Virus record (IMG/VR): IMGVR_UViG_3300031651_000016
Span: 1-29,681 of that record
Strand: one strand, 5' to 3'
Origin: a virus
DNA length: 29,681 nt
Shown here: positions 3,818 to 29,681 of the stretch, piece after piece
Layout: the number at the start of each line of letters is the position of its first letter
Numbering within the stretch: position 1 is the first letter of the stretch
The notes under the pieces: generated by a model
What the model saw: only the letters and a program-made list of their open reading frames with translations
The model's database searches: none
What the model was told of the DNA's origin: nothing
Position numbers and translations under genes: made by a program

Positions 3818-4960
3818 ATGAGTAGGCCCACAAAACAAGGAATAGACTATTTTCCTATGGATAACAACCCAGACAAGAAGCTCAAACTCTTTATACTCAA
3901 AAACGGCGCGGAGGGATTTGGTATTCTCGTTCTCGCGTGGGGAATGATTTACAGGGAAGAGGGATATTATACCCGTTATGATGAGGACTTCGTATTGCTT
4001 CTCCGGGAAGAGTCATTGTCAGAGGCGGAAACCATAGTTTCCGTAATCAAAAACGCCATTAATCGCGGACTATTCGACAGGGAATTATTTGAGAAATACC
4101 AAATTCTAACTTCACAAGGCATCCAGAAACGATATTTTCAGGCAGCTAAAAAGAAAAAAGAGGTGGCGGTTATCTCTGAATACTTATTAATTGATGTTTC
4201 CGACTGCGATAACCTTGTTTATGTCGCCGGAAATGAAATAGATTCTGGCGGAAATGCCCTAAAGGAAGAGGGGAAGGGAGAGGTAGAAGTAGATGTAGAA
4301 ATAAAAGAAAAGGAAAAACCAGCTTCACTGGGGGTCTCTACTCCTTCTCAAAAAGCGAAAAAAACAAGAATGGCTAATCTCGCCTTCGCTGAAGTAGTTC
4401 GCAATAAATATATCCGCTGCGCTGCGAAGTATGTATTTGGCAAGCTCGATATTAAGTGCACACCGGATAAAATACCGAGGGGGTTCGCGCCGAAATTCGC
4501 GGGAATGAGTTTAATGGACAATACGCGGTTCACTCGAAATGTTAAAAAGGCGGCTCAGGGAATGCTCGATCCGGTAGAACTTTTAGATGCCGCCGAAATA
4601 TATTTCACAGAGAATTTTGGGAAAGACAACCCTGACCCGATTTTTATCAAGCAGATTGACAATTTCTACGGCTCTCGTGAAGGTATTTACGGAAGTTATA
4701 TGCCACAATGGAAGATTGACATTGACTTGCCGGACGTTTGGGTTTGCCCTTGCGGTGGGGATGTCTATGTATGGCGAGATATTCGAGCACCGTATACAAT
4801 AGCGCGTTGCGAGAAATGTTTGAAGCGATACACGGTTGCGGAGGTAAAAGAACTCAAAAAAGCGGAGACGGTAGACGTAGCAGGATTAGTAAAAAAAGTT
4901 ACGGAATCAATGGGAAAAGCCGCCCATGAAGGCGAGGAAAAAGAAGATCGAAATGAGTGA
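3818..4960 (+). CDS. DUF4373-type phage replisome organiser
   Basis: The N-terminal 110 residues (GIDYFPMDNNPDKKLK, then GAEGFGILVLAWGMIYREEGYY) match the pattern I know as the DUF4373 / Lin1244-Lin1753 winged-helix domain found at the front of phage replication initiators. A charged linker (about 145-190) follows. Near the C-terminus, CPCGGDVYVW and CEKCLKRYTV form a zinc ribbon. Such proteins are thought to bind the phage origin and recruit host replication proteins. The length of 380 residues is normal for multi-domain members. AAGGATAG precedes the ATG. The gene overlaps the next one, which encodes another DNA-binding replication protein. The origin itself is not evident. Confidence 0.75.
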   Translation: MSRPTKQGIDYFPMDNNPDKKLKLFILKNGAEGFGILVLAWGMIYREEGYYTRYDEDFVLLLREESLSEAETIVSVIKNAINRGLFDRELFEKYQILTSQGIQKRYFQAAKKKKEVAVISEYLLIDVSDCDNLVYVAGNEIDSGGNALKEEGKGEVEVDVEIKEKEKPASLGVSTPSQKAKKTRMANLAFAEVVRNKYIRCAAKYVFGKLDIKCTPDKIPRGFAPKFAGMSLMDNTRFTRNVKKAAQGMLDPVELLDAAEIYFTENFGKDNPDPIFIKQIDNFYGSREGIYGSYMPQWKIDIDLPDVWVCPCGGDVYVWRDIRAPYTIARCEKCLKRYTVAEVKELKKAETVDVAGLVKKVTESMGKAAHEGEEKEDRNE

Positions 4961-5282
4961 TATATTAGATAATAATCCTGATAATAGGTTTGGGTTTATA
5001 GTCCGAATCGTAGCTACCGATACGGAATTCAATGTCGAGCCGGAGGAAATATTGAGCTATCTTCGTGCCCAGCCGGTAGCTTTAGCGCGACAGGTAGTTT
5101 GGTATTTTTTGAGGAGGGAGTTCCGTTTTTGGGGATACAATTATATAGGGAAACGCTTTGGCTTAACGCATTCTACGGTGATTTCGGGAATAAAGAATGT
5201 CAAGAATAAAATGGAAACCGACCCGGACTTCGCTGCGCTGATCGAGCGGATAAAGACAAAAATCGAAAGCGAGAGGAAATAA
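4926..5282 (+). CDS. Stand-alone DnaA domain IV-like DNA-binding protein
   Basis: This 118-residue protein corresponds to the C-terminal domain of the bacterial initiator DnaA alone. ARQVVWYFLRR (54-64) matches the conserved DnaA helix, and IGKRFGLTHSTVISGIKNV (74-92) matches the helix-turn-helix and signature segment, where full-length DnaA has D-H-T/S-T-V-L-x-A. There is no AAA+ ATPase part. It could bind DnaA-box-like sites to direct or block initiation. A second start at 4953 is plausible, since the first nine residues are only basic; the family core is unaffected. It overlaps both the replisome organiser and the next gene, so the three form one translation unit. Confidence 0.75.
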   Translation: MKARKKKIEMSDILDNNPDNRFGFIVRIVATDTEFNVEPEEILSYLRAQPVALARQVVWYFLRREFRFWGYNYIGKRFGLTHSTVISGIKNVKNKMETDPDFAALIERIKTKIESERK

Positions 5283-6034: not shown

Positions 6035-6541
6035 ATGTCTTTGCTTAATCCTGATAAGTGGGATAACCGGTCCGCCGAACACGCTCTCGCGGATTTTTTC
6101 TCTGCGTGGTCTCAGCGCGATTTTTCTGCGATGTATCAAGCCACTGTCTATTCGTGGCGCAAGGAGCAGTCGGTTGCCGACGCGATACGATATCTGAAGT
6201 CTTGGTATGGCGAGTTTAGGCTTCGAGAGGCAACACTTATCTCAACCGAGGTTATCCGAGAATTGCACGGTAAGGAGGATATTTATGCCGTATACCCCGA
6301 CGATGTTATCGGCAATAGGGAACTCGCCGATGAATATATCTCGAAACTGAAAGCCCTCGAAGGCGCGTTTTTAGTGAAGGCTACGGTGAAAATTGTCGTT
6401 AAGTATCGAAAGCGGCGAATAACGGATATGATGATGATCTCCGTTATATGCGAACAGGAAGGTCTCGGAATCGATCCTGGCGGCGACTGGGGTGTATCTC
6501 CAGCGATGGCAATGCCAACAGTGAAAAAGGAGAAAAAGTGA
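6035..6541 (+). CDS. Unknown protein, possible NTF2-like fold
   Basis: The ATG at 6035 is preferred because AAGGAGG at 6021-6027 is seven bases away; the ATG at 6029 is too close. The 168-residue protein has an N-terminal helix pattern (SAEHALADFFSAWSQRDFSA) typical of NTF2-like folds, followed by alternating strands. NTF2-like domains serve as binding pockets or oligomer modules, so no activity follows. Its stop overlaps the GTG start of the second zinc protein. The role is unknown. The fold suggestion rests on the look of the N-terminus alone. Confidence 0.5.
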   Translation: MSLLNPDKWDNRSAEHALADFFSAWSQRDFSAMYQATVYSWRKEQSVADAIRYLKSWYGEFRLREATLISTEVIRELHGKEDIYAVYPDDVIGNRELADEYISKLKALEGAFLVKATVKIVVKYRKRRITDMMMISVICEQEGLGIDPGGDWGVSPAMAMPTVKKEKK

Positions 6542-6828
6542 ATATCGAGTGGAAGATTTATTGCGATAAGTGCGGGGATGAAATACCGACAGATGAGGGA
6601 AAACTGTTCTTTGAGGTAAAGAATAAACGAGGAGATACGGGGTCGTATTTGATTTCAGAGTTTGTTGATGGCAGTATTGTAACAACGGACATCAAAATAG
6701 GGTTGTCGTTTCGATATGCCAGAATTTTTCAAAAGGCTATCGAACAGCCTATAAAAATAGCATTTATACAACAGGGAGAAACAACCAAAATACTCTGTGC
6801 AAAATGTGCGAAAAAGGAAACCAAATAA
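6538..6828 (+). CDS. CxxC/CxxC zinc-binding protein, copy 2
   Basis: A GTG at 6538 overlaps the previous stop (GTGA) and follows AAGGAG by five to six bases. The 96-residue product is a diverged copy of the protein at 5282-5524. It shares the YCDKCG-EIP-DEG start, the IVTT-IK-GL middle and the LC-KCAKK end, with about 15 extra residues between. A stretch around the first CxxC is nearly identical at DNA level (TTTATTGCGATAAGTGCGGG in both), which indicates a fairly recent duplication. Two CxxC pairs should hold one zinc. The function is unknown. Confidence 0.7.
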   Translation: MNIEWKIYCDKCGDEIPTDEGKLFFEVKNKRGDTGSYLISEFVDGSIVTTDIKIGLSFRYARIFQKAIEQPIKIAFIQQGETTKILCAKCAKKETK

Positions 6829-10755: not shown

Positions 10756-13062
10756 ATGGATTTATTCGGTCTAAACATATCAAGAGCGCGAACCGCCGGG
10801 CCGATTAACGTTCCGCCGCCGACCAAGGCCGAACTGCCTCCCTCCGGCAAAAGCTCGAAGTCTCCCGGCGAAATCCTCGCGGCGCAGTTCTCGATATTCG
10901 AGGGGATGAAACCGCCGGATACTCGAATCTGGACGTATATCGAGCTTGCCGCGCTATACAATCCCGATATTTCCGCGGCGATACACACCATAAAATCCCT
11001 TGCCGATACGCCATATAACATAGTTTCAGAGACCGGAGACCCGCTATCCGAACAAGCGCAAGACGTTATCGGCGCTTTCAAAGATCGATGTTTCCCGCTC
11101 GCCGGAGGTATGGACGGCTTTCAACTTGCCCTTATTCGAATGTTTGCGAAGTTCGGGGCGCTGTCCACCGAAGCGGAAATATTGAAGGATCGATCTGGCA
11201 TCAAGCAGCTCTGGTTCGTTCCCGTGCCGGAGATACGATTTAAATTCGAGGACGGCGTTTATACGGCTCACCAGTCGATAACCGGCGTTGGCACGGGCAA
11301 CCTTATTCCGTTGAATCCGATCACTTATCAGTTCCTATGCGCGGAGTTCTGGGAGGATGGCAAGCCGTATGCAAAGCCGCCGATGACCGCCGCTATCGAC
11401 GGGATACTGCGCGGAGATAACATCCTGACGAACATCGACTACATCATCGAGAAGGTTGGATTGCTGGGGATAAGAGATATAGCCTTTGCGCCGCTGAAGC
11501 CCAATCCGGGAGATGTAGCGGACAGCCCGTCGCACGTTGCGAAAAACATCGCTTTTCAAGCGAAGATTATGGCCAGCGAAGAGGATCACAAGCGCGACGG
11601 CGTTCGTGTTCATACCAACGACATCGACTATACCTTGACACAAGCCGCCGTAGACACACGTGGCGTTGCAGATATATACAAGCTCAATGAGGAGCAGATT
11701 TCGGCAGGCACGGGAATAGCAGAAGCTCTATATGGACGTTCGCGGCAAACGACTGAGGCCTTTGCAAAGGTTATGTATCTGCTCGCTCTGAACTATGCTG
11801 AGATTGCACAGCGGCTTTCAGGTAATTTCTCGTCGTATTTTGTGAATCTTGAACTTGCGTTAAAGGGAATTAACGAAAAGGTGAAGTTCGAGCACGATCC
11901 TATCCCGCCGCTCGACGCTCAGAAGGACGCCGAAGCTGAATATAAGCGGATCGAGACGATAGCCTTGAAGGAAGGACTTGGATATATCGACCACGAGCGG
12001 GCGGTGAACGAGGCCGGTTATGAGGATATTCCCGACGAGAAGCCGGAACCTGAACCAGAACCGGAACCCGTCGAAGAGGAGCCGGTCGAAGAGCAATCTT
12101 TGATAACGATACCCGCTATATTGAGCCGAAGCGCAATGCTCAAAGAGCTAACTCCGAAGGCGCGAAAGTTCATAAGAGATTTTATAAAGGCTACAAACGA
12201 TGCCGCTGGCGGCGCAGAGATATTCGCAATGGGGGACTTTGAAACGTTCATGGAGTCGCGTGTTGCTGGAGACTTTACCGGAGCAGAGGACTTCGCTAGA
12301 CAGCTTATGGAAACGGTCGGTAGCGGCTGGGCGGCAGCAGGTTCAGAGTTCCAAGAAGCCGTTGAAAGCACCGTTCCTGCGCTCTATGAATACCTAATTA
12401 TCTCCGATGCTTCGGTATGGCACAGCGCAACCCCGCCGATAGAATTTGTATTCGGTGAAGGGTCGCAGAATCTTGTCAATTTTGCACGGTTGTTTGAGCC
12501 GCATCTTTGCACAACGCTTTGGTCAGACCCGACGTGCCCAGAAAATAAAGCGCTCGGAAAATACCTCGAACGAGAGTTTTTGGATAGAGGGGCGGATATA
12601 TTTAGTCGGACAAATCCTGAGGGATATAGAACATTTCGTAATGCCTTTGGTAGGCAACTTGGACATCTATCCGACTATCAGATACGCCGGATACAGGACA
12701 CATTCGTTATGCGTTGCCGGAACGGGTCGATGCTCGAACAGCTACACCAAGCCAGAACGAAAACGGCGCGGATAAGCACGACGGTTACCTGTTGCGAGAT
12801 ATGCGAACCGTATGAAGGCAAGGAGTTCGCCGTCGAGCCACAATACGAGGCTATGCAGAGCCAAATGGCAATGTCGCCGGACGAATACCTTGGATTTCTA
12901 CGGGATAACAACGACACAATCCGGTCGGGCACTCGTCAGAAGGACGATACAGACGCCGATTATAAGAAGCGTGGAGATAAGGCATGGGCGACACTGCAAG
13001 AACAGGGGCTTTGTTTGCCGCCGTATCACCCTATCTGTGGCCACGATTTAGTCGAACCTTAA
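10756..13062 (+). CDS. Portal protein fused to a MuF-like head domain
   Basis: The N-terminal part (about 1-420) is a phage portal of the DUF935/gp29-like kind, with helical segments around IWTYIELAALYNPDISAAI and a long stem region. It would form the dodecameric ring through which DNA enters. A proline-glutamate linker (about 427-447) joins it to a C-terminal part whose end carries CCEICEPYEGKEF (about 678-690) and LPPYHPICGHDL, the Cys/His pattern of Mu gpF-like head morphogenesis domains. These are usually two genes, so this is a natural fusion of 768 residues. The ATG follows directly on a terminator and has no ribosome binding site, which leaves its expression unexplained. Confidence 0.85.
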   Translation: MDLFGLNISRARTAGPINVPPPTKAELPPSGKSSKSPGEILAAQFSIFEGMKPPDTRIWTYIELAALYNPDISAAIHTIKSLADTPYNIVSETGDPLSEQAQDVIGAFKDRCFPLAGGMDGFQLALIRMFAKFGALSTEAEILKDRSGIKQLWFVPVPEIRFKFEDGVYTAHQSITGVGTGNLIPLNPITYQFLCAEFWEDGKPYAKPPMTAAIDGILRGDNILTNIDYIIEKVGLLGIRDIAFAPLKPNPGDVADSPSHVAKNIAFQAKIMASEEDHKRDGVRVHTNDIDYTLTQAAVDTRGVADIYKLNEEQISAGTGIAEALYGRSRQTTEAFAKVMYLLALNYAEIAQRLSGNFSSYFVNLELALKGINEKVKFEHDPIPPLDAQKDAEAEYKRIETIALKEGLGYIDHERAVNEAGYEDIPDEKPEPEPEPEPVEEEPVEEQSLITIPAILSRSAMLKELTPKARKFIRDFIKATNDAAGGAEIFAMGDFETFMESRVAGDFTGAEDFARQLMETVGSGWAAAGSEFQEAVESTVPALYEYLIISDASVWHSATPPIEFVFGEGSQNLVNFARLFEPHLCTTLWSDPTCPENKALGKYLEREFLDRGADIFSRTNPEGYRTFRNAFGRQLGHLSDYQIRRIQDTFVMRCRNGSMLEQLHQARTKTARISTTVTCCEICEPYEGKEFAVEPQYEAMQSQMAMSPDEYLGFLRDNNDTIRSGTRQKDDTDADYKKRGDKAWATLQEQGLCLPPYHPICGHDLVEP

Positions 13063-13071
13063 GGAGGAATA

Positions 13072-13266
13072 GTGGGAATGCGAACGACGATATGCCCAAA
13101 ATGCGATAAGGTTATCAGGGTCCGCAAGGTATTCTGGCCGGGGGACTCTAAGATATATGAGTTGTGTAACGAGTGCGGAGGGAAACGGGAAAGCAACGAA
13201 AGGGAAATTCGGAAGGGAAAAAAGAATCGAAAGGGGTCGTTTCGGAGTGGAGGCTGGCATGTTTAA
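13072..13266 (+). CDS. Small zinc-ribbon protein
   Basis: AGGAGG at 13062-13067 serves a GTG at 13072 or an ATG at 13078. The product of about 64 residues has CPKCDK and, 20 residues later, LCNECGGK, a compact zinc ribbon, followed by a very basic tail. The basic tail suggests contact with nucleic acid. Its position between portal and protease is unusual for a known head protein. The stop overlaps the protease start by eight bases, so coupling is likely. Confidence 0.6.
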   Translation: MGMRTTICPKCDKVIRVRKVFWPGDSKIYELCNECGGKRESNEREIRKGKKNRKGSFRSGGWHV

Positions 13267-14815
13267 GAAGCTGACTTTCCAAGGCAAGGCTGGCGCTCGA
13301 TTAGATTTCGAGGGGGACTTTGATACAGGGAGCGGAAGTCTAATTGCCACCTCCGCGACGTTGAAGGTAAAGAGTAACCTCGAACCTAACGAGAAGTTCT
13401 CCCCGGACGAGTTTATTTCAGTCCCGTTTCGGTTCCTTTCCGCAACGATAATCGAAGGCCACGAACTCGAAATATCCGAGAAGGTTCTGAAAAAGGCGGT
13501 TAAGCTCTGGGACAATAAGCCGGTGCAGGTCGATCATTTATTCAATATCGAGGACAATATCGGGATAACATCGAATCCTATATGGGATGGTGAAAGTGAA
13601 CCGCCCGGAGTGAACGGTTGGCTACATATTAATAAAATCCGGGACGCCGAAAAGGGGCAGGCCGTTTCGCAGGGACTTAAAATGGGAACGGTCGAATCGA
13701 CATCGGTTTGGTTCTGGTTCGATTGGGAACCGAGCCACCCCGACCTCGACGAGGCGGTGTTCTGGGAGATGCTCGGACAGGAGGTAAATAGTCGGCGGGT
13801 AACTATCGTCCTGACCAAGATTACCGATGTATGGGAGCAGTCTCTTGTGCTTCTCGGCGCGGACGTCAACGCGAAAAAGCTGTCAAGAAATGATAGCGGT
13901 TCGCAATTCGCCGAGGATGAAACCTATAAATGTGAATGTATCGACTGCGGCTATACGATTATGACTCAATCGCACTGTGCTAATCTAACTTGCGCAGAGT
14001 GTGGGGGGCAAATGCGACGTGCGGAGCGCCCTGGGGGGGGCGATAGCAGGGGCGCTCAAGATGAAGATGGCTGGGTATTGAATACCGCCGGAGTAACTCA
14101 GGCAAAGTCGGCTATAAGCGCCGGAAAAATAAATACTGGCAAATGGGACGGCGCGGCGGCGGAGAAGGAAGCCCTCGGAGATCCCGACAATCCAAATTGG
14201 ACGCGCTATGGGAAATGGCATTTGGCTCATAGAAGCGAAGGCGAGAAGGAAACAAAGGCATACTGGGGTTATCCATTCGGCGACGGAACGGAGGTTTATA
14301 CCGCCGGACTCCGTGCGATAATCTCGGCGGCTTCCGGTGGGCGCGGCGCGGAAGAACAGAAAGCGATAGCCGAAGCCGCGCGGAATCTGTTGGAGTTAGC
14401 AAATGAGAAAATAGAAACATCAAAGGAGGCGAAAATGCTCGAAAAACTTCGCAAGCTGTTTGGGTTGCCCGACGAGGCAACCGAGGACGAGGTAATGGGG
14501 GTCGTTTCGACGGCCAAAACGAAGGCCGAGAAGCACGATGTAGCGCTCAAAGCGGTACAGGATGCCGGAATAGCGGCGCTTGGAGTGTTAGTAGAGAAAA
14601 AGGTCGAAGTCAGTCCAAACCTGAAAGCTATGCTCGAAGGCGCGGATGAGGACGGTATCCGCTACGCGAGTGCGGAAATCACGCGGATTCTCGTGGAGAA
14701 GCTCCCCGAATCAGGGCGTTCCTCGAAGACAAGCGACCCGAACGCTTCGGCGGAGCCGGAGTCAACCGAACCGGCGGAAGGTTTCAAGGCCGCCGGTGTA
14801 GTCCCTCACAGGTAG
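13259..14815 (+). CDS. Head maturation protease with C-terminal scaffold
   Basis: The ATG at 13259 follows GGAGG by five bases. Residues 1-200 resemble a prohead protease, with His93 in QVDHLFN and Ser147/Ser149 in VESTSVWF as candidate catalytic positions. A zinc ribbon (CECIDCG, then CAECGG, about 224-250) is inserted next. A segment with GKWHLAH and VYTAGLRAIISAASG follows. The last 125 residues are charged and helical, as in scaffold proteins. A protease-scaffold fusion would guide capsid assembly and then be degraded. The catalytic assignment is an inference from pattern and position. The gene lies between portal and capsid genes, where this protein is expected. Length 518 residues. Confidence 0.65.
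   Translation: MFKKLTFQGKAGARLDFEGDFDTGSGSLIATSATLKVKSNLEPNEKFSPDEFISVPFRFLSATIIEGHELEISEKVLKKAVKLWDNKPVQVDHLFNIEDNIGITSNPIWDGESEPPGVNGWLHINKIRDAEKGQAVSQGLKMGTVESTSVWFWFDWEPSHPDLDEAVFWEMLGQEVNSRRVTIVLTKITDVWEQSLVLLGADVNAKKLSRNDSGSQFAEDETYKCECIDCGYTIMTQSHCANLTCAECGGQMRRAERPGGGDSRGAQDEDGWVLNTAGVTQAKSAISAGKINTGKWDGAAAEKEALGDPDNPNWTRYGKWHLAHRSEGEKETKAYWGYPFGDGTEVYTAGLRAIISAASGGRGAEEQKAIAEAARNLLELANEKIETSKEAKMLEKLRKLFGLPDEATEDEVMGVVSTAKTKAEKHDVALKAVQDAGIAALGVLVEKKVEVSPNLKAMLEGADEDGIRYASAEITRILVEKLPESGRSSKTSDPNASAEPESTEPAEGFKAAGVVPHR
14435..14815 (+). CDS. Scaffold protein from an internal in-frame start
   Basis: Inside the protease gene, a strong AAAGGAGG (GGAGG at 14425-14429) lies five bases before an in-frame ATG at 14435. 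Translation from here gives 126 residues (MLEKLRKLFGLPDEATEDEV onward) of charged helical sequence with an acidic tail, a normal scaffold. This repeats the lambda C/Nu3 arrangement, in which the scaffold is the separately initiated C-terminal part of the protease gene. The site is stronger than that of many genes here. Direct proof would need protein data. Confidence 0.7.
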   Translation: MLEKLRKLFGLPDEATEDEVMGVVSTAKTKAEKHDVALKAVQDAGIAALGVLVEKKVEVSPNLKAMLEGADEDGIRYASAEITRILVEKLPESGRSSKTSDPNASAEPESTEPAEGFKAAGVVPHR

Positions 14816-14830
14816 AAAGGAGGTTATAAG

Positions 14831-16834
14831 ATGAGAAAAACTATTGTCCTTGTTCTGGCTATGCTTATGGCCGGTCTGATAGTTACGTCGGCTTTCGGAC
14901 TGGCAGGGGTTAATCATAGGTTAATCCCGTGGACGTTCTGGCCGAACGTTGCGGACTACATCGAGACCCGCGACACGCTCTGGTTCGATTCCTGCTCCGG
15001 TGTCTGGTCAGACGCGATACATGATTCTTGCGAACAGGTCCGTAGCGAGATCGATGACTCGGTGTTATCGGACTGGTCGGAATTTCTTAGGGATTCGGCG
15101 GACGTTGTTGCAATCGAAAACTGGAACGATAGCGCGGGAGTAATATTCCGGCACGATGGCAGTGTTCCAGCGTCAGGAGATTGGAATCTATCCCAACAGA
15201 ATATCGATAGCGTGAACTTAATTAAAGTCGATACGCTTGGGGCGTCGAGCGCTGAGATAGATTTAGCCTATATAGCAGCGATTACCGGTATAAATACTAT
15301 CGAAAACATCAACTCAATTGCTATAAACAGCGCGGAGCATTCCATATCTTTCGAAGGGGATAGTTTCATCTTCAACGACGGGGGCTATGGCGGCTCTGGA
15401 TGTATATACGCGGATACGATATATGGCGACCTTCACGGGAACGCTTCCACGGCGGATAGTGCTTTACACGCCGACCATGCCGACCATGCCGACCAAGCAG
15501 ACACGGCGGGGCTTGCGTTGACAGCAGATTATGCCGACACTGCTGGTTGTTGCGAAACGGCATGGGCAAAGATGATGGACACTTTAGTAGTAATTCGAGG
15601 TGAGATGCCGGATAGCACATTGCGCGTTTGGAATGATTCGCTACCGGCGGCACTGGGATACGTCCACGATACAGCGGAAGTAGTTCGAGGGGAGATTCGG
15701 GATACAGCGACAGTTGTTTGGAACGACTCACTCGATATTATTCTGGGAGCCATATCGGATACGTCGCAAGCGTATTTGACTTTTATTCGAGATTCCGCTA
15801 CCGTTGTTTGGAATGATTCGCTCGATATTATTCTTGGGGCGGTATCGGATTCCGTCGATGCACATGCTGCGGATTCGCTCGATTTGTTCTTACGGCTCGA
15901 TGGGACTACGATAATGGATGGCGGTGTGCGATACTGGGGGCAGGATGCTACGCTTGCCGACTCGTTCTGGATTTTCGACGACGGCGATACAACGCGCTTT
16001 AATGCCGACAATCCGATTAAGATTGGCAATGCATCGCTAATTGTCGGGACGGACGGCAAAATCTACACGAACGATATATCTTATGTTACCCAAAACGACT
16101 CGGTTCTATATGGTGGTGTATATTATATATCGTATTACGATTATTTCACCACTGGTGTCGATACGTCGATTATAGCATTTCTAAAAACCGACGAAGATAC
16201 CGGCCTTGTGATAGTTAGCACTCAGGATTTGTTTATGGTAAGTGAAAATATTCACCTATCGAATCCTTCCGGTGGCAATTCGCTTGTCGAGGTTAGCGGA
16301 AACATCGATGTATCCGATACTATCTTTATTGACAGTAAAGATGTTCTCGAAATGGTGCATGATAGTGTAGTCGCTGGTATAGCAGCAATCGATACATTAG
16401 CGGGGATGCTCTATGTTAATGGTGATTGGCATTCTGTTAATGGTGACAGAACTATGTTTAATTTCCCCGGTATTAACGAGTGGACAATCGGCAACACTAC
16501 CGACACGCTCGTTGTCGCGTCCTCGACGTGGGACATAGACAAGAATGGGATAGCGACGTTTGATAGTGTTTATGCTGATATTATCGGCGCTTTGACCGGC
16601 CTTGCGGATAGTGCTTCGATTGCGATTTTAGCCGATAGTGCTACGGTTGCGGTCACGGCATATGATGTCGATACAGCGGGAACCGCTTTAGCGGCGGCGC
16701 TTGCGAATAGGCAACCGCTCGCAACGCTATTAACGCAATTTGTAGCTTGCGTAGATAGTGCAACATGCGCAACCGATACGTTGTGGCTCTGGAAGGGCGG
16801 CAAACACTTCGAGATAGTATTTACTACACCGTAA
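14831..16834 (+). CDS. Signal-peptide-bearing fibre-like repeat protein
   Basis: This 667-residue protein begins with a clear Sec signal peptide: basic MRK, hydrophobic core about 5-17, probable cleavage around 22-27. The mature part is acidic and Asp/Ser/Ala-rich. It includes an A-D-x-A heptad tract (about 204-239, STADSALHADHADHADQADT and on), three tandem 30-residue repeats, beta-rich segments and a second heptad tract before the end. Such tracts are typical of trimeric phage fibres and secreted adhesins. Phage structural proteins normally lack signal peptides, and this gene sits in the head block between scaffold and decoration protein. It could be a cell-surface protein made during infection or an exported receptor-blocking factor. 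AGGAGG precedes the ATG. Confidence 0.7.
   Translation: MRKTIVLVLAMLMAGLIVTSAFGLAGVNHRLIPWTFWPNVADYIETRDTLWFDSCSGVWSDAIHDSCEQVRSEIDDSVLSDWSEFLRDSADVVAIENWNDSAGVIFRHDGSVPASGDWNLSQQNIDSVNLIKVDTLGASSAEIDLAYIAAITGINTIENINSIAINSAEHSISFEGDSFIFNDGGYGGSGCIYADTIYGDLHGNASTADSALHADHADHADQADTAGLALTADYADTAGCCETAWAKMMDTLVVIRGEMPDSTLRVWNDSLPAALGYVHDTAEVVRGEIRDTATVVWNDSLDIILGAISDTSQAYLTFIRDSATVVWNDSLDIILGAVSDSVDAHAADSLDLFLRLDGTTIMDGGVRYWGQDATLADSFWIFDDGDTTRFNADNPIKIGNASLIVGTDGKIYTNDISYVTQNDSVLYGGVYYISYYDYFTTGVDTSIIAFLKTDEDTGLVIVSTQDLFMVSENIHLSNPSGGNSLVEVSGNIDVSDTIFIDSKDVLEMVHDSVVAGIAAIDTLAGMLYVNGDWHSVNGDRTMFNFPGINEWTIGNTTDTLVVASSTWDIDKNGIATFDSVYADIIGALTGLADSASIAILADSATVAVTAYDVDTAGTALAAALANRQPLATLLTQFVACVDSATCATDTLWLWKGGKHFEIVFTTP
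15608..15877 (+). repeat. Three tandem 90-bp repeats in the fibre-like gene
   Basis: Three in-frame units (15608-15697, 15698-15787, 15788-15877) each encode 30 residues with VWNDSL at the same offset, then LG and a D-T/S near the middle. Units 2 and 3 are nearly identical over RD-ATVVWNDSLDIILGA. Unit 1 is more diverged. Confidence 0.8.
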
Positions 16835-16846
16835 CATTTAAACAAC

Positions 16847-16865
16847 GGGGCGGGTTAAACGCCTC
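16847..16865 (+). other. Short hairpin before the capsid genes
   Basis: GGGGCG and CGCCTC pair over six positions (one G-T) around a seven-base loop in the 73-base gap after the fibre-like gene. No T-run follows. It could be an RNA-processing or stability element, or chance. Confidence 0.3.
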
Positions 16866-16907
16866 TAAATATAATTGACAATATAACATAAATAAAGGAG
16901 GTCAGAA

Positions 16908-17303
16908 ATGCCTTACATCACAGACGTAGACGGGTATAATGAACTCGACCTGCTTGCCGGAGATTGCGATAGCCTTACGGCTACGACCTCTGACGCAACG
17001 GGAGACGAGAATAAACCCGTCAAAGTAACCGGTGCGTTGAAGTGGGGATTACTTGCCGCGAACGACGATATCGGCGGTATCGTTCGCAAGATCGAGCGGA
17101 CGAATGAAGTTTGCGCCGTTCAGGTTCACGGTGTCGCAACTCTTGCTTACACCGGGAGCGCCCCGACGGTTGGCTGGGGAACGCTTATTAGTTCAGCCAC
17201 TATTGGCAGCGTCAAGGCCGGGACGCCAGCAGCGGGTTCTCCACTTCAAGAGATTCTCGAAGTTGACACCGTCGCCAAAACAGTAACCTTTAGAATGCAG
17301 TAA
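16908..17303 (+). CDS. Head decoration protein
   Basis: The 131-residue protein is beta-rich and Gly/Ala/Thr-rich, with a conserved-looking centre (NKPVKVTGALKWGLLAANDD) and a C-terminus ending in strands (VDTVAKTVTFRMQ). This is the usual look of DUF2190-type decoration proteins, which bind outside the capsid lattice after expansion and stabilise it. It stands directly before the major capsid gene, where such genes belong. A perfect AAAGGAGGT precedes the ATG. Family assignment rests on composition, size and synteny. Confidence 0.65.
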   Translation: MPYITDVDGYNELDLLAGDCDSLTATTSDATGDENKPVKVTGALKWGLLAANDDIGGIVRKIERTNEVCAVQVHGVATLAYTGSAPTVGWGTLISSATIGSVKAGTPAAGSPLQEILEVDTVAKTVTFRMQ

Positions 17304-17316
17304 GGGGGTGAAAAAA

Positions 17317-18426
17317 ATGCAAATACTCAATAAAATATCCGATATTCCGAGAATAGTATTGACGGCGCAGGATCACCTCACGGCAGCCGCTCGGAAGATA
17401 TCCATTCGTGAATTTCTCGCCGAGAAGGAACGCGAAGCCCTCGTCGATAAGGTTCTCGCGGACTGGATGAAAAAGGACGTTAATACCGGACAGACTCTGG
17501 ATGCTTACGACAGGCAACTCGAAGTCCGGGGAATCCGAGGTTCTTCGCAACTCGGAATATTCTTCACGCCGGAAAATATCGGTCTATTTCCCGAACTCGT
17601 CGAGAGCTTGATTTTCAACACAGAAAACGAGCTTGACGTGAACGAGTTAAAGCCGGCCGATTTCATCAAAACGACTATCGAAATCGAATCGAACGCTACG
17701 AAGGTCACGGAGCTATCGCTTCCGACCGGCAAGAAAAAGGCGAAGAGGGCGGTCGAGGGCGCGGCGCTTCCGCAGTATTCGATTCAGGAATCGGGCACCA
17801 CGGTAACTCTGACGAAATACGGATTTTCTGTCCGTATAACCGACGAGGCAAAACGCCGGGAAACGGTCGATAGCATCAAGACCGTCTATAATGAGATTAT
17901 AACCAACGAGATTTACAGGCGTCAGGTCGGAGCAGGCCTTGCCGTTCTGTTGGCAGGAGGCTATACTTCGTTCTCTTTGGCTGGAGTGAATCTTACCGAT
18001 CTCGACCTCTATCGGCTTATGTTCTCGAATTCCGAGGACGCCGGGGCAACGGTCAATCAGGCACGGAGACCGGACATACTCATAACCGCTGCTGATGGAG
18101 CTACAACGCCAAACGGGAAATTCCTGTTCGATTTGGTCAGTATGCGAGACTCGCGCACGGGCTACGACATTACGAAGCCAACTCTTCCTCCATGTAAGGG
18201 CAGGCCTGTAAAGTTCTATCATTCACCCGACGGTTCCGGCCCCGACCTCGACGGGAAAATAGTCGGACTATACACCCCGTTGGCTTTACGTAAATATGTC
18301 GAACGCGGTTCGCAGATTACGGAAACTGCGCGGTTCATTAACGGACAGTGGAACCAAATGGACTGGTCGATTTATATCGGGTTCCACCGGTATAATGCCG
18401 ACTGTGTCAGGGTGCTAATACCGTAA
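17317..18426 (+). CDS. Major capsid protein (HK97 fold)
   Basis: AGGGGGTG at 17303-17310 sets the ATG at 17317 as the start; the GTG at 17308 is part of the binding site. The 369-residue protein has an N-terminal charged helical segment, an extended-loop region (about 85-140), a spine-helix region and a C-terminal part with LYTPLALRKYVERG and WSIYIGFHRYNADCVRVL, as in HK97-fold capsid proteins. It assembles into the icosahedral shell. There is no long N-terminal delta domain, which agrees with a separate scaffold. Position after decoration and before connectors supports the call. Confidence 0.85.
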   Translation: MQILNKISDIPRIVLTAQDHLTAAARKISIREFLAEKEREALVDKVLADWMKKDVNTGQTLDAYDRQLEVRGIRGSSQLGIFFTPENIGLFPELVESLIFNTENELDVNELKPADFIKTTIEIESNATKVTELSLPTGKKKAKRAVEGAALPQYSIQESGTTVTLTKYGFSVRITDEAKRRETVDSIKTVYNEIITNEIYRRQVGAGLAVLLAGGYTSFSLAGVNLTDLDLYRLMFSNSEDAGATVNQARRPDILITAADGATTPNGKFLFDLVSMRDSRTGYDITKPTLPPCKGRPVKFYHSPDGSGPDLDGKIVGLYTPLALRKYVERGSQITETARFINGQWNQMDWSIYIGFHRYNADCVRVLIP

Positions 18427-18878
18427 TGTCGATTGCTACAACGGCATATGTAGCAGAAGTTGGCAGCTTTTTCGAACGCGGCGATCTATCGTATCTGGAG
18501 GCTCCGCTTCGGCGGGCCTCCAGAAAACTACGGCGCTGGGTTGGGGCAACGGCATATGATACAGCGGAAAGTGCGGGCGCGGGTGAGGTATTCGACGCTT
18601 TACGCGAAACTGAAGCGTTGCTTGCTGTTCGAGAAGCCCTGCCATCCGTAAATCGAGCGGATACTGGCAAGGGAATAACCTTGACGTCGGGGATAAATTC
18701 AACGGAAGGCAGCAAAACAACTCGCTATATGAATCCAGCGGAGGTCAGCGCGGAACAGCAACGGTTAATAGCACAGGCGCTCGAACAGGTTCGGGACTAT
18801 TTGCTTTCTGCCTATCAAGCCGGACTCAAGCCGGCGCACATCGACGAGAGCGATTTCCAAGACGAGGAAGAGGAATAA
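18426..18878 (+). CDS. Head-tail connector (adaptor, gp6-like)
   Basis: The 150-residue protein is largely helical and very acidic at the end (DESDFQDEEEE). Its start overlaps the capsid stop (TAATG). By place and size it should be the adaptor that docks on the portal ring and begins the neck. The sequence motif is weak, so the assignment relies mainly on gene order. The GAGGAAGAGG that encodes its acidic tail also serves as the ribosome binding site of the next gene. Confidence 0.6.
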   Translation: MSIATTAYVAEVGSFFERGDLSYLEAPLRRASRKLRRWVGATAYDTAESAGAGEVFDALRETEALLAVREALPSVNRADTGKGITLTSGINSTEGSKTTRYMNPAEVSAEQQRLIAQALEQVRDYLLSAYQAGLKPAHIDESDFQDEEEE

Positions 18879-19300
18879 TGCGTCCAGTGAAACCAGAGGA
18901 ACTATCCGGCCTTTTTGAACTCGCCATACATCGTGGGTTTATAAAGATTGCGCACAAAGTTCGCTCGAAAGCGAAAACCAAATACGCCCCGGAAATTACC
19001 GGGAACCTTCGCAGATCAATAGTCGATCCACAGATAACAGCGCAAGGTGTTTATCCTATGCGAGCGAAGCTACCGGCGCAGGCAACCTATTCGGCGGCAG
19101 TCCACGAAGAGACAAAGCCTCACGATATATATCCCGTGAATGCGAAGGCTCTATATTGGCCGGGCGCGGCACATCCGGTAAAGGTCGTTCACCACCCGGG
19201 AACAAAACCGAATCCATTTTTCCAATATGCCATCGAGGACGTTGAGCAGAACGAACTCGATGAATGTATCGCAGGAGGATTTAGGACGGTGTTCTCGTGA
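18878..19300 (+). CDS. HK97 gp10-like neck/tail component
   Basis: The 140-residue protein contains the pattern of the HK97 gp10 family: YAPEITGNLRRSI, then YSAAVHEETKPHDI, ALYWPG and a C-terminal PGTKPNPFFQYAIE. These proteins act in joining head and tail. The start overlaps the previous stop and the end overlaps the next GTG start, so it is embedded in a coupled connector operon. The HEETKPHDI and PNPFF motifs are clear. Confidence 0.8.
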   Translation: MRPVKPEELSGLFELAIHRGFIKIAHKVRSKAKTKYAPEITGNLRRSIVDPQITAQGVYPMRAKLPAQATYSAAVHEETKPHDIYPVNAKALYWPGAAHPVKVVHHPGTKPNPFFQYAIEDVEQNELDECIAGGFRTVFS

Positions 19301-20502: not shown

Positions 20503-21414
20503 ATGGCAAGGACAATTACGTTTAATGTTAAGGATGCCGACACCGGCTTAGACCTTCAAAAAGTCGTAATGACGGTTCTGGATGCCGCCGACGCGGTTCT
20601 GTCAACCGGGAACACCGATGCAAACGGGGACTATACGAGCGCAGCGCAGCTTGCTACGACGGCGTATTATCTCACCGCAACGTTGGCCGGATATATTTCG
20701 GTCGTTAAAGCGGCTGCTGCCGGTGCACCTGTTACTTCGTATTTCCAACCGAAGCTGCACTGGATAAGCCCGACTGCGGATGAAACGCAGGGTATCTCAA
20801 TTCTGTTGATACCTGATCGTGCGCGGACGCAGTGCGTCGTCTATGAAGGCGCAGGCGCGGGCGCAGGTGCAGTGCAGACCCCGGTTGCCGGTGCGACGGT
20901 TCTCGTTAAGAAAACAAGCGATAATTCGCTTATCGAAACACTGACGACCGATGCCGATGGGGTTGTTTTCCTCGACGAAACCTCGTATCTCGGCGTGCCG
21001 TATTCCTGTGTAGTGAGCAAGGCTCTCTATAATTCCAATACGGTGTATCGCGGGAATTATGAAGCCGGTCAGAGTTTCGCCGTGCCGCTACAGTTGACTA
21101 TCGCTCACACAACGCACAACTTCTCACTGCACCTGATCGACGGTTCCGGTGCTCCGATATCCGGGAAGGTTCTAAAACTTAATATACTCGGTATGTTGAG
21201 CATAACCGATACCGGCGAGGAGTATTACGTCAATAAGAGCGGGCAGTTGACCCTGACAACCGATGTCAACGGCGATGCCGATGTAGAGATTCTCGAAGGT
21301 CTCGTCGTGCAACCGGCCTCGGGTTGGGCGTCATACTTCGGATATCCTGAAGGCGTATTATGGATTATTACGGCAGACGTTATTCTCGGAGATAGTGCCG
21401 CTGGATTGATCTAA
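20503..21414 (+). CDS. Ig-like tail or surface decoration protein
   Basis: The 303-residue protein has three beta-sandwich units of the carboxypeptidase-regulatory or Ig-like kind, each with a T-D-A/V-D/N-G turn: NTDANGDYTS (about 38-47), TTDADGVVFL (about 147-156) and TTDVNGDADV (about 249-258). A GAGAGA stretch separates units one and two. Such domains are often attached to phage tail tubes or capsids and bind carbohydrates weakly on cell surfaces. No signal peptide is present. AAGGAGGTG precedes the ATG, and a strong terminator follows the stop. Confidence 0.65.
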   Translation: MARTITFNVKDADTGLDLQKVVMTVLDAADAVLSTGNTDANGDYTSAAQLATTAYYLTATLAGYISVVKAAAAGAPVTSYFQPKLHWISPTADETQGISILLIPDRARTQCVVYEGAGAGAGAVQTPVAGATVLVKKTSDNSLIETLTTDADGVVFLDETSYLGVPYSCVVSKALYNSNTVYRGNYEAGQSFAVPLQLTIAHTTHNFSLHLIDGSGAPISGKVLKLNILGMLSITDTGEEYYVNKSGQLTLTTDVNGDADVEILEGLVVQPASGWASYFGYPEGVLWIITADVILGDSAAGLI

Positions 21415-29071: not shown

Positions 29072-29239
29072 ATGTCGTTATTATTAGAGAGGCTCACAAG
29101 CCGGAAACTGGGAATCGCGGGAATCGCTACGGCTCTTGTATACCTCGATAAGATTCCCGCGTGGGCTTGGGTCGCTGTCGTGGTCGCCTATATTGTAGCG
29201 AACGTATTTGAAAACCATAAAAACGGAGGTCAGAAATGA
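29072..29239 (+). CDS. 55-residue membrane protein, holin candidate
   Basis: The ATG at 29072 follows AAAGGTGAG. The product (MSLLLERLTSRKLGIAGIAT and on) has a weak hydrophobic helix at about 14-25 and a strong one at about 29-45 (PAWAWVAVVVAYIVANV), with a charged tail. Small size, a strong membrane span and neighbouring membrane genes fit a holin, which forms lesions in the inner membrane at lysis. The 3' end holds the GGAGGT that serves the next gene and overlaps its ATG. Confidence 0.6.
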   Translation: MSLLLERLTSRKLGIAGIATALVYLDKIPAWAWVAVVVAYIVANVFENHKNGGQK

Positions 29240-29681
29240 GAAGGACACAAAACACGATCCTTTGGGCGCTATCGATTCTAATGGTGCTTGGTGCATTGTC
29301 GTTTTTCGCGCCGGTATCGACATTCGCACAGAGACACGACCCCGATAGTCCAAGTGCAATCGAAGCGCCGGAGGCGGCGGTCGAGACCCCTGTCGAGGGT
29401 GAATCGGCAACCGAGAACGAGGGAATCTGGAAATATATTTACTGGATTTTCGGCAGCTTTGGCGTAATTATTCTCGGGTTTGTTTTCAAGCTCGTGAAGG
29501 ACAAAGTAAAGTTCGCGCGTTATATGAACGTCGCCGGGGAGACCCTCGATGCTATCGCTACTATTGCGAAGGCCGCTGCCGATTGTGAATTTTCTGATGC
29601 CGAAAAAGCGGAGATTAAGAAGGAACTCGACGAAGCCCGTGCCGCATGGAAAAACGGCAAGGTCTACGGTTCGCAGATACA
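29236..29681 (+). CDS. Signal-peptide membrane protein, cut by the window end
   Basis: GGAGGTCAG precedes the ATG. The visible 148 residues begin with a Sec-type signal sequence (about 8-30) ending in a good cleavage site (STFAQ). An acidic Pro/Glu/Ala stretch follows, then a second membrane span (about 75-92, YIYWIFGSFGVIILGFVF) and a charged helical cytoplasmic or periplasmic part. The gene runs off the window, so its full length is unknown. With the two preceding genes it forms a membrane-protein cluster, likely holin or lysis related. It is the second phage gene here with a signal peptide. Confidence 0.6.
   Translation, partial: MRRTQNTILWALSILMVLGALSFFAPVSTFAQRHDPDSPSAIEAPEAAVETPVEGESATENEGIWKYIYWIFGSFGVIILGFVFKLVKDKVKFARYMNVAGETLDAIATIAKAAADCEFSDAEKAEIKKELDEARAAWKNGKVYGSQI

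Follow-up and report, generated by a model that had tools for sequence, protein, structure and literature searches.

Gene order around the fibre-like ORF

The window analysed here, that is, the whole stretch of DNA under study, is a 29,681-base linear virus record. Its genes run from a replication region through the small and large terminase subunits, the portal and a head maturation protease to a fibre-like ORF of 667 amino acids (aa), and from there through a decoration-like protein and the major capsid protein to connector genes, tail genes and, at the end, lysis-like ones (Table 1). The ORF starts with ATG, and its coordinates and reading frame proved exact. Its Shine-Dalgarno sequence begins right behind the protease stop codon (14813-14815), with 15 untranslated bases between that stop and the ATG, and on the other side the ORF is separated from the major capsid gene by a single gene, that for the decoration-like protein. 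The initial annotation had placed the ORF between scaffold and decoration protein, which agrees with the families matched by the flanking genes, phrog_8158 for the protease/scaffold and phrog_4588 for the decoration-like protein. A scan for sigma-70-like sites found no plus-strand promoter match before the ORF, and this, together with the tight spacing, would fit late coexpression with the head genes. The hairpin that follows the ORF was not called by the terminator scan and could serve as a weak terminator or attenuator. Two features of the neighboring regions were also recorded. Residues 252-292 of the protease form a Zn-ribbon-like insert with six cysteines and a weak likeness to rubrerythrin-like domains (match at 2.2e-5, under its cutoff), and the replication region contains a stand-alone DnaA C-terminal DNA-binding domain (4926-5282; PF08299, 1.1e-12).

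Table 1. Features of the 667-aa ORF and of the genes on either side (positions in the window; a slash marks the predicted cleavage site)
Feature	Position	Strand	Basis or remark
Head maturation protease, scaffold-like C-terminal part, Zn-ribbon-like insert	13157..14815	+	phrog_8158 4e-33; phrog_34096 7.5e-18
Shine-Dalgarno sequence AAAGGAGG	14816..14823	+	7 nt upstream of the ORF's ATG; read from the sequence
Fibre-like ORF	14831..16834	+	667 aa; no homologue in the libraries searched
Predicted Sec signal peptide, residues 1-23, MRKTIVLVLAMLMAGLIVTSAFG/LAG	14831..14899	+	Hydropathy, shuffles
N-terminal amphipathic, probably helical region, residues 40-105	14948..15145	+	Hydrophobic period 3.85
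Triplet-alanine tract 1, residues 204-240, GDLHG just before	15440..15550	+	Alanine period 3.0
Three 30-residue tandem repeats, starts 254, 284 and 314, predicted coiled coil	15590..15859	+	DNA repeats, self-comparison
Triplet-alanine tract 2, residues 590-632	16598..16726	+	Alanine period 3.0; aligns with tract 1
Short C-terminal segment ending in WLWKGGKHFEIVFTTP, plus stop	16727..16834	+	Translation; no family match
Hairpin in the gap between ORF and decoration gene	16847..16865	+	Fold of 16835-16910: -11.9 kcal/mol, z -2.7
Decoration-like virion protein	16908..17303	+	phrog_4588 2.5e-16
Major capsid protein	17308..18426	+	phrog_3922 1.4e-23; PF25209 4.9e-8

The ORF is an orphan. We found no homologue of its product in Pfam, PHROGs, NCBIfam, PDB, INPHARED, PLSDB (best match E = 5) or IMG/VR, where INPHARED and PLSDB were searched by tblastn and IMG/VR was scanned with the whole protein and one 76-residue segment. 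Among tail-fibre families, PHROGs gave no match and Pfam a chance-level one (E = 0.4, below cutoff). When 681 genomes were scanned for the DNA pattern encoding ADTAGxADTA, one genome matched, and the peptide lies in no predicted ORF of its locus. Likewise, queries with the capsid protein, protease, portal and terminase reached only distant phages in the collections searched. The closest cultured virus by terminase is the methanogen virus psiM2 (45% identical); an archaeal host was nevertheless judged unlikely, since a Bac_DnaA_C domain and a Lin1244_N replication protein, both encoded in the window, point to a bacterium as host.

Predicted signal peptide and periodic body

The initial annotation read a Sec signal peptide at the N-terminus of the protein and proposed signal prediction as a check, and this reading is borne out by the simple purpose-made rule (charge, hydropathy and cleavage motif) on which the term “signal peptide” rests here. 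The rule asks for a positive n-region, a hydrophobic core of 7-15 residues and small residues at positions -3 and -1, and the protein has canonical n-, h- and c-regions: an MRKT n-region (charge +2), a hydrophobic core of about 15 residues (residues 5-19) and a small-x-small motif at the cleavage-like site AFG/L24. When the protein was shuffled 20,000 times with its composition preserved, only 40 of the shuffles passed this rule; it is also passed by 10 of the 1,167 plus-strand ORFs of at least 80 aa from the fetched loci. None of the other late structural genes of the window passes it, and the peak hydropathy over 10 residues is 3.17 in the 667-aa protein versus 1.42 in the next late structural gene. 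Because the strong Shine-Dalgarno sequence fixes the start codon, the predicted signal would always be made. Since the protein has no homologue, there is no sign of selection conserving this signal.

An N-terminus of this kind could also act as an uncleaved anchor that tethers the protein to the inner membrane, for instance in lysis or in spanning the envelope. The hydrophobic core could weakly span a membrane, and other membrane proteins are encoded at the right end of the window. However, the core is short and followed by a cleavage motif, and judged by its sequence it resembles a cleaved signal more than a membrane anchor. Furthermore, a long distance separates the gene from the lysis-like ones, and its product matches no enzymatic or spanin family, so that we consider this explanation highly improbable. 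Behind the signal, the protein lacks a second strongly hydrophobic stretch (maximum 19-residue mean hydropathy, 1.49).

The remainder of the protein is an acidic, Asp/Ser-rich body, just as first described, with 77 D, 58 S and a net charge of -70. Its six paired cysteines (55/67, 240/241 and 640/646) could be candidates for disulfides formed outside the cytoplasm; the first pair, 12 residues apart, falls inside the amphipathic region, whose hydrophobic period is supported by a shuffle test (p = 0.005). In both alanine tracts an alanine occupies each third residue, and none of 2,000 whole-protein shuffles reaches the score of either; in tract 1, TRF detects 2.9 copies of GCCGACCAT. The three tandem repeats of the initial annotation were recovered in DNA and protein alike, as DNA repeats D1 and D4 with a 90-nt spacing, as self-comparison BLOSUM scores of 106 and 81, and as 82% DNA identity over 66 nt between the units starting at residues 284 and 314. 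Their hydrophobic period is 3.75 (15 residues per 4 turns; shuffle p = 0.003), which is moderate evidence because six segments, picked by eye, were tested for periodicity. The description given in the initial annotation is thus confirmed with one exception, namely the “A-D-x-A heptad tracts”: the alanine-rich tracts are there, but heptads were rejected, the period being 3.0 in these tracts and 3.75 in the repeats. A single-sequence AlphaFold model of the whole protein (pLDDT 34.6, pTM 0.26) is unusable beyond the signal helix at residues 2-23, the sole stretch to come near a pLDDT of 60.

The 15/4 period is known from the coiled-coil stalks of trimeric adhesins such as YadA. The 667-aa protein thus shares with trimeric autotransporter adhesins of this type both a Sec signal, here a predicted one, and a stalk-like period. 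Unlike them, it has no C-terminal YadA membrane anchor and no Pfam family above cutoff, and it is encoded in a phage head cassette. We also take its alanine-triplet tracts and a G-x-L-x-G-N-A-x-T-A-like motif to resemble tail-fibre linkers. Nevertheless, it differs from fibres of the Peptidase_S74 and tail-fibre-repeat kinds in its predicted signal peptide, in the lack of any Pfam or PHROG fibre match and in its place outside the tail module.

The head-gene junction in relatives and signal-bearing proteins in other phages

According to the initial annotation, the position between protease and decoration gene is normally empty, and homologues were to be sought at the same locus in related phages. 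The first claim stands in the eight distant relatives whose junction is readable, six of them recognised by portal and protease (L006, L011, L012, L013, L014 and L017) and two by their capsid protein (L008 and L009). In all eight, nothing lies between the protease and the decoration protein: the protease is followed by a small protein of about 110-160 aa, which we took to be the decoration protein by size, position and inspection, and then by the capsid gene. L005, which is disturbed at this point, was left out of the count. The search for a homologue at the same locus could be carried through in these eight distant relatives, and none has one there. Portal identity to the distant relatives is 26-27% (two aligned), and the insertion of the ORF is undatable because the relatives are so distant. 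As a separate observation, the gene between protease and capsid in L002 (8674-9714) encodes 346 aa rather than about 130; by inspection, it is apparently a decoration protein plus an extra C-terminal domain.

The closed junction, the orphan status of the protein and the hairpin behind the gene would all suit a moron, that is, a secreted-fibre gene captured from a bacterium and inserted into the head operon, where it would serve lysogenic conversion through adhesion or superinfection exclusion. We nevertheless consider this unlikely, given that the ORF has no promoter match of its own in the sigma-70-like scan, that its GC content (0.49) is close to that of the neighboring genes, that no integrase or repressor was recognised in the window and that 199 genomes from the single bacterial phylum sampled yielded no homologue.

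Another observation was that signal-bearing proteins occur in the structural regions of other phages. In L023, a fibre-like protein of 386 aa (17789-18949; N-terminus MRRHLLVLLLGLAAAAGALA/D, 12 Cys), for which INPHARED holds no homologue, starts in overlap with the stop of the preceding structural-cassette gene. In L052, a protein of 270 aa (11171-11983) with a strong Shine-Dalgarno sequence and a signal-like N-terminus is encoded downstream of a PF05065 capsid gene and the gene for a 160-aa decoration-like protein. A scan for relatives of the 270-aa protein returned its own contig only; its C-terminal half matches phrog_11997, a domain shared with a protein of Pseudomonas phage Rollin that is encoded beside a tail-fibre gene and has no signal. 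Both proteins are unrelated to the 667-aa protein, and both phages are uncultured. A third phage, L095, with one of the large terminases closest to that of the window, encodes a 117-aa signal-bearing protein directly after its terminase (6200-6553). The three cases are single observations, met while relatives were scanned by terminase rather than in a survey, and they lower the likelihood that the 667-aa ORF arose as a chance fusion within one assembly. It is tempting to speculate, if only tentatively and against the greater probability, that some uncultured tailed phages send fibre- or decoration-like proteins of the structural cassette through host Sec, and that these fold outside the cytoplasm, perhaps with disulfides, and coat the infected cell or join particles after lysis; the window, L023 and L052 would then be independent, nonhomologous examples.

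Possible export or assembly as a head fibre

The explanation that we favour, and to which we give about an even chance, is that the 667-aa protein is a late-expressed, Sec-exported and probably trimeric fibre that acts either at the cell envelope or extracellularly. Its predicted export signal is a textbook one, so that the infected cell may secrete the protein instead of, or before, incorporating it into virions. The fibre would be made late, together with the capsid proteins, and leave through the host Sec pathway; signal peptidase would presumably cut after Gly23, and the acidic fibre would fold and trimerise outside the cytoplasm, where it might function at the infected cell's envelope or be shed at lysis. 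Its putative task there would be that of an adhesin-like or receptor-masking fibre, or attachment to released particles. The roles suggested in the initial annotation, namely a coat on the host cell, receptor blockage or altered adhesion, are hypothetical. The signal anatomy, the strong Shine-Dalgarno sequence, the 15/4 repeats, the closed junction in relatives and the L023 and L052 cases speak for export, which the sequence thus supports as plausible, if unproven. On the other hand, the gene shares a tight cassette with virion genes, as expected of a virion protein. In diderms, Sec by itself takes a protein to the periplasm rather than the surface, and a search of Pfam found no outer-membrane anchor; in a host of that kind, the protein would therefore be left in the periplasm. 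If export holds, late infection would leave the host cell covered in phage fibres, or else tailed virions could acquire components that had left the cytoplasm.

Fibres of tailed phages are as a rule synthesised and put together in the cytoplasm. The main alternative, possible though doubtful, is a head or receptor-binding fibre assembled there, its hydrophobic N-terminus being hidden within the capsid or removed by the head protease and playing no part in export. The position of the gene between protease and decoration gene agrees with such a fibre, as does the fact that no separate fibre gene was recognised in the window, even though lysis-like genes come after the tail genes; the Rollin protein, which carries the L052 C-terminal domain without a signal, points the same way. 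On the other side, a cytoplasmic virion protein with all three Sec parts at its N-terminus would be expected to be mis-exported, and no known head or tail fibre matches in sequence. To our knowledge, no Sec signal is known for gp8.5 of phi29. This protein forms trimers on the phage head, has a spike built as a coiled coil and has been proposed to help in attachment (PMC7602432). It resembles the 667-aa protein, whose coiled coil is a predicted one, in that its gene lies near the capsid gene and in its repeats and coiled coil, and it may be regarded as a positional and architectural analogue. It may differ in its beta-tulip capsid-binding base, for which the 667-aa protein offers neither a PDB sequence match nor, at the low pLDDT given above, a fold model.

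Reports on Porphyromonas gingivalis phages bear on both explanations. For Sec export, they provide a precedent in phage genes of unknown function whose products carry predicted Sec signals; the secreted proteins treated in the portion of that work drawn on here are other ones, and a fibre-like head-module architecture is not described in it (PMC10367356). For a head fibre, the same portion includes capsid proteins with predicted signal peptides that are thought to be removed by the head protease (PMC10367356). The statement in the initial annotation that virion proteins normally lack signal peptides must be qualified to this extent, as these capsid proteins are exceptions at the level of prediction.

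Toward its right-hand part, the window encodes two further proteins of note. One is a 303-aa protein of the tail region (20503-21414) with carboxypeptidase-regulatory/Ig-like repeats, which is poor in Lys and Arg, as is the 667-aa fibre. The other, at 29236-29679, runs off the end of the window and follows two small membrane proteins (28811 and 29072) in the lysis-like module; its N-terminus, MRRTQNTILWALSILMVLGALSFFAPVSTFAQ, is the second signal-like one in the window, and behind it come an acidic linker and a transmembrane segment.
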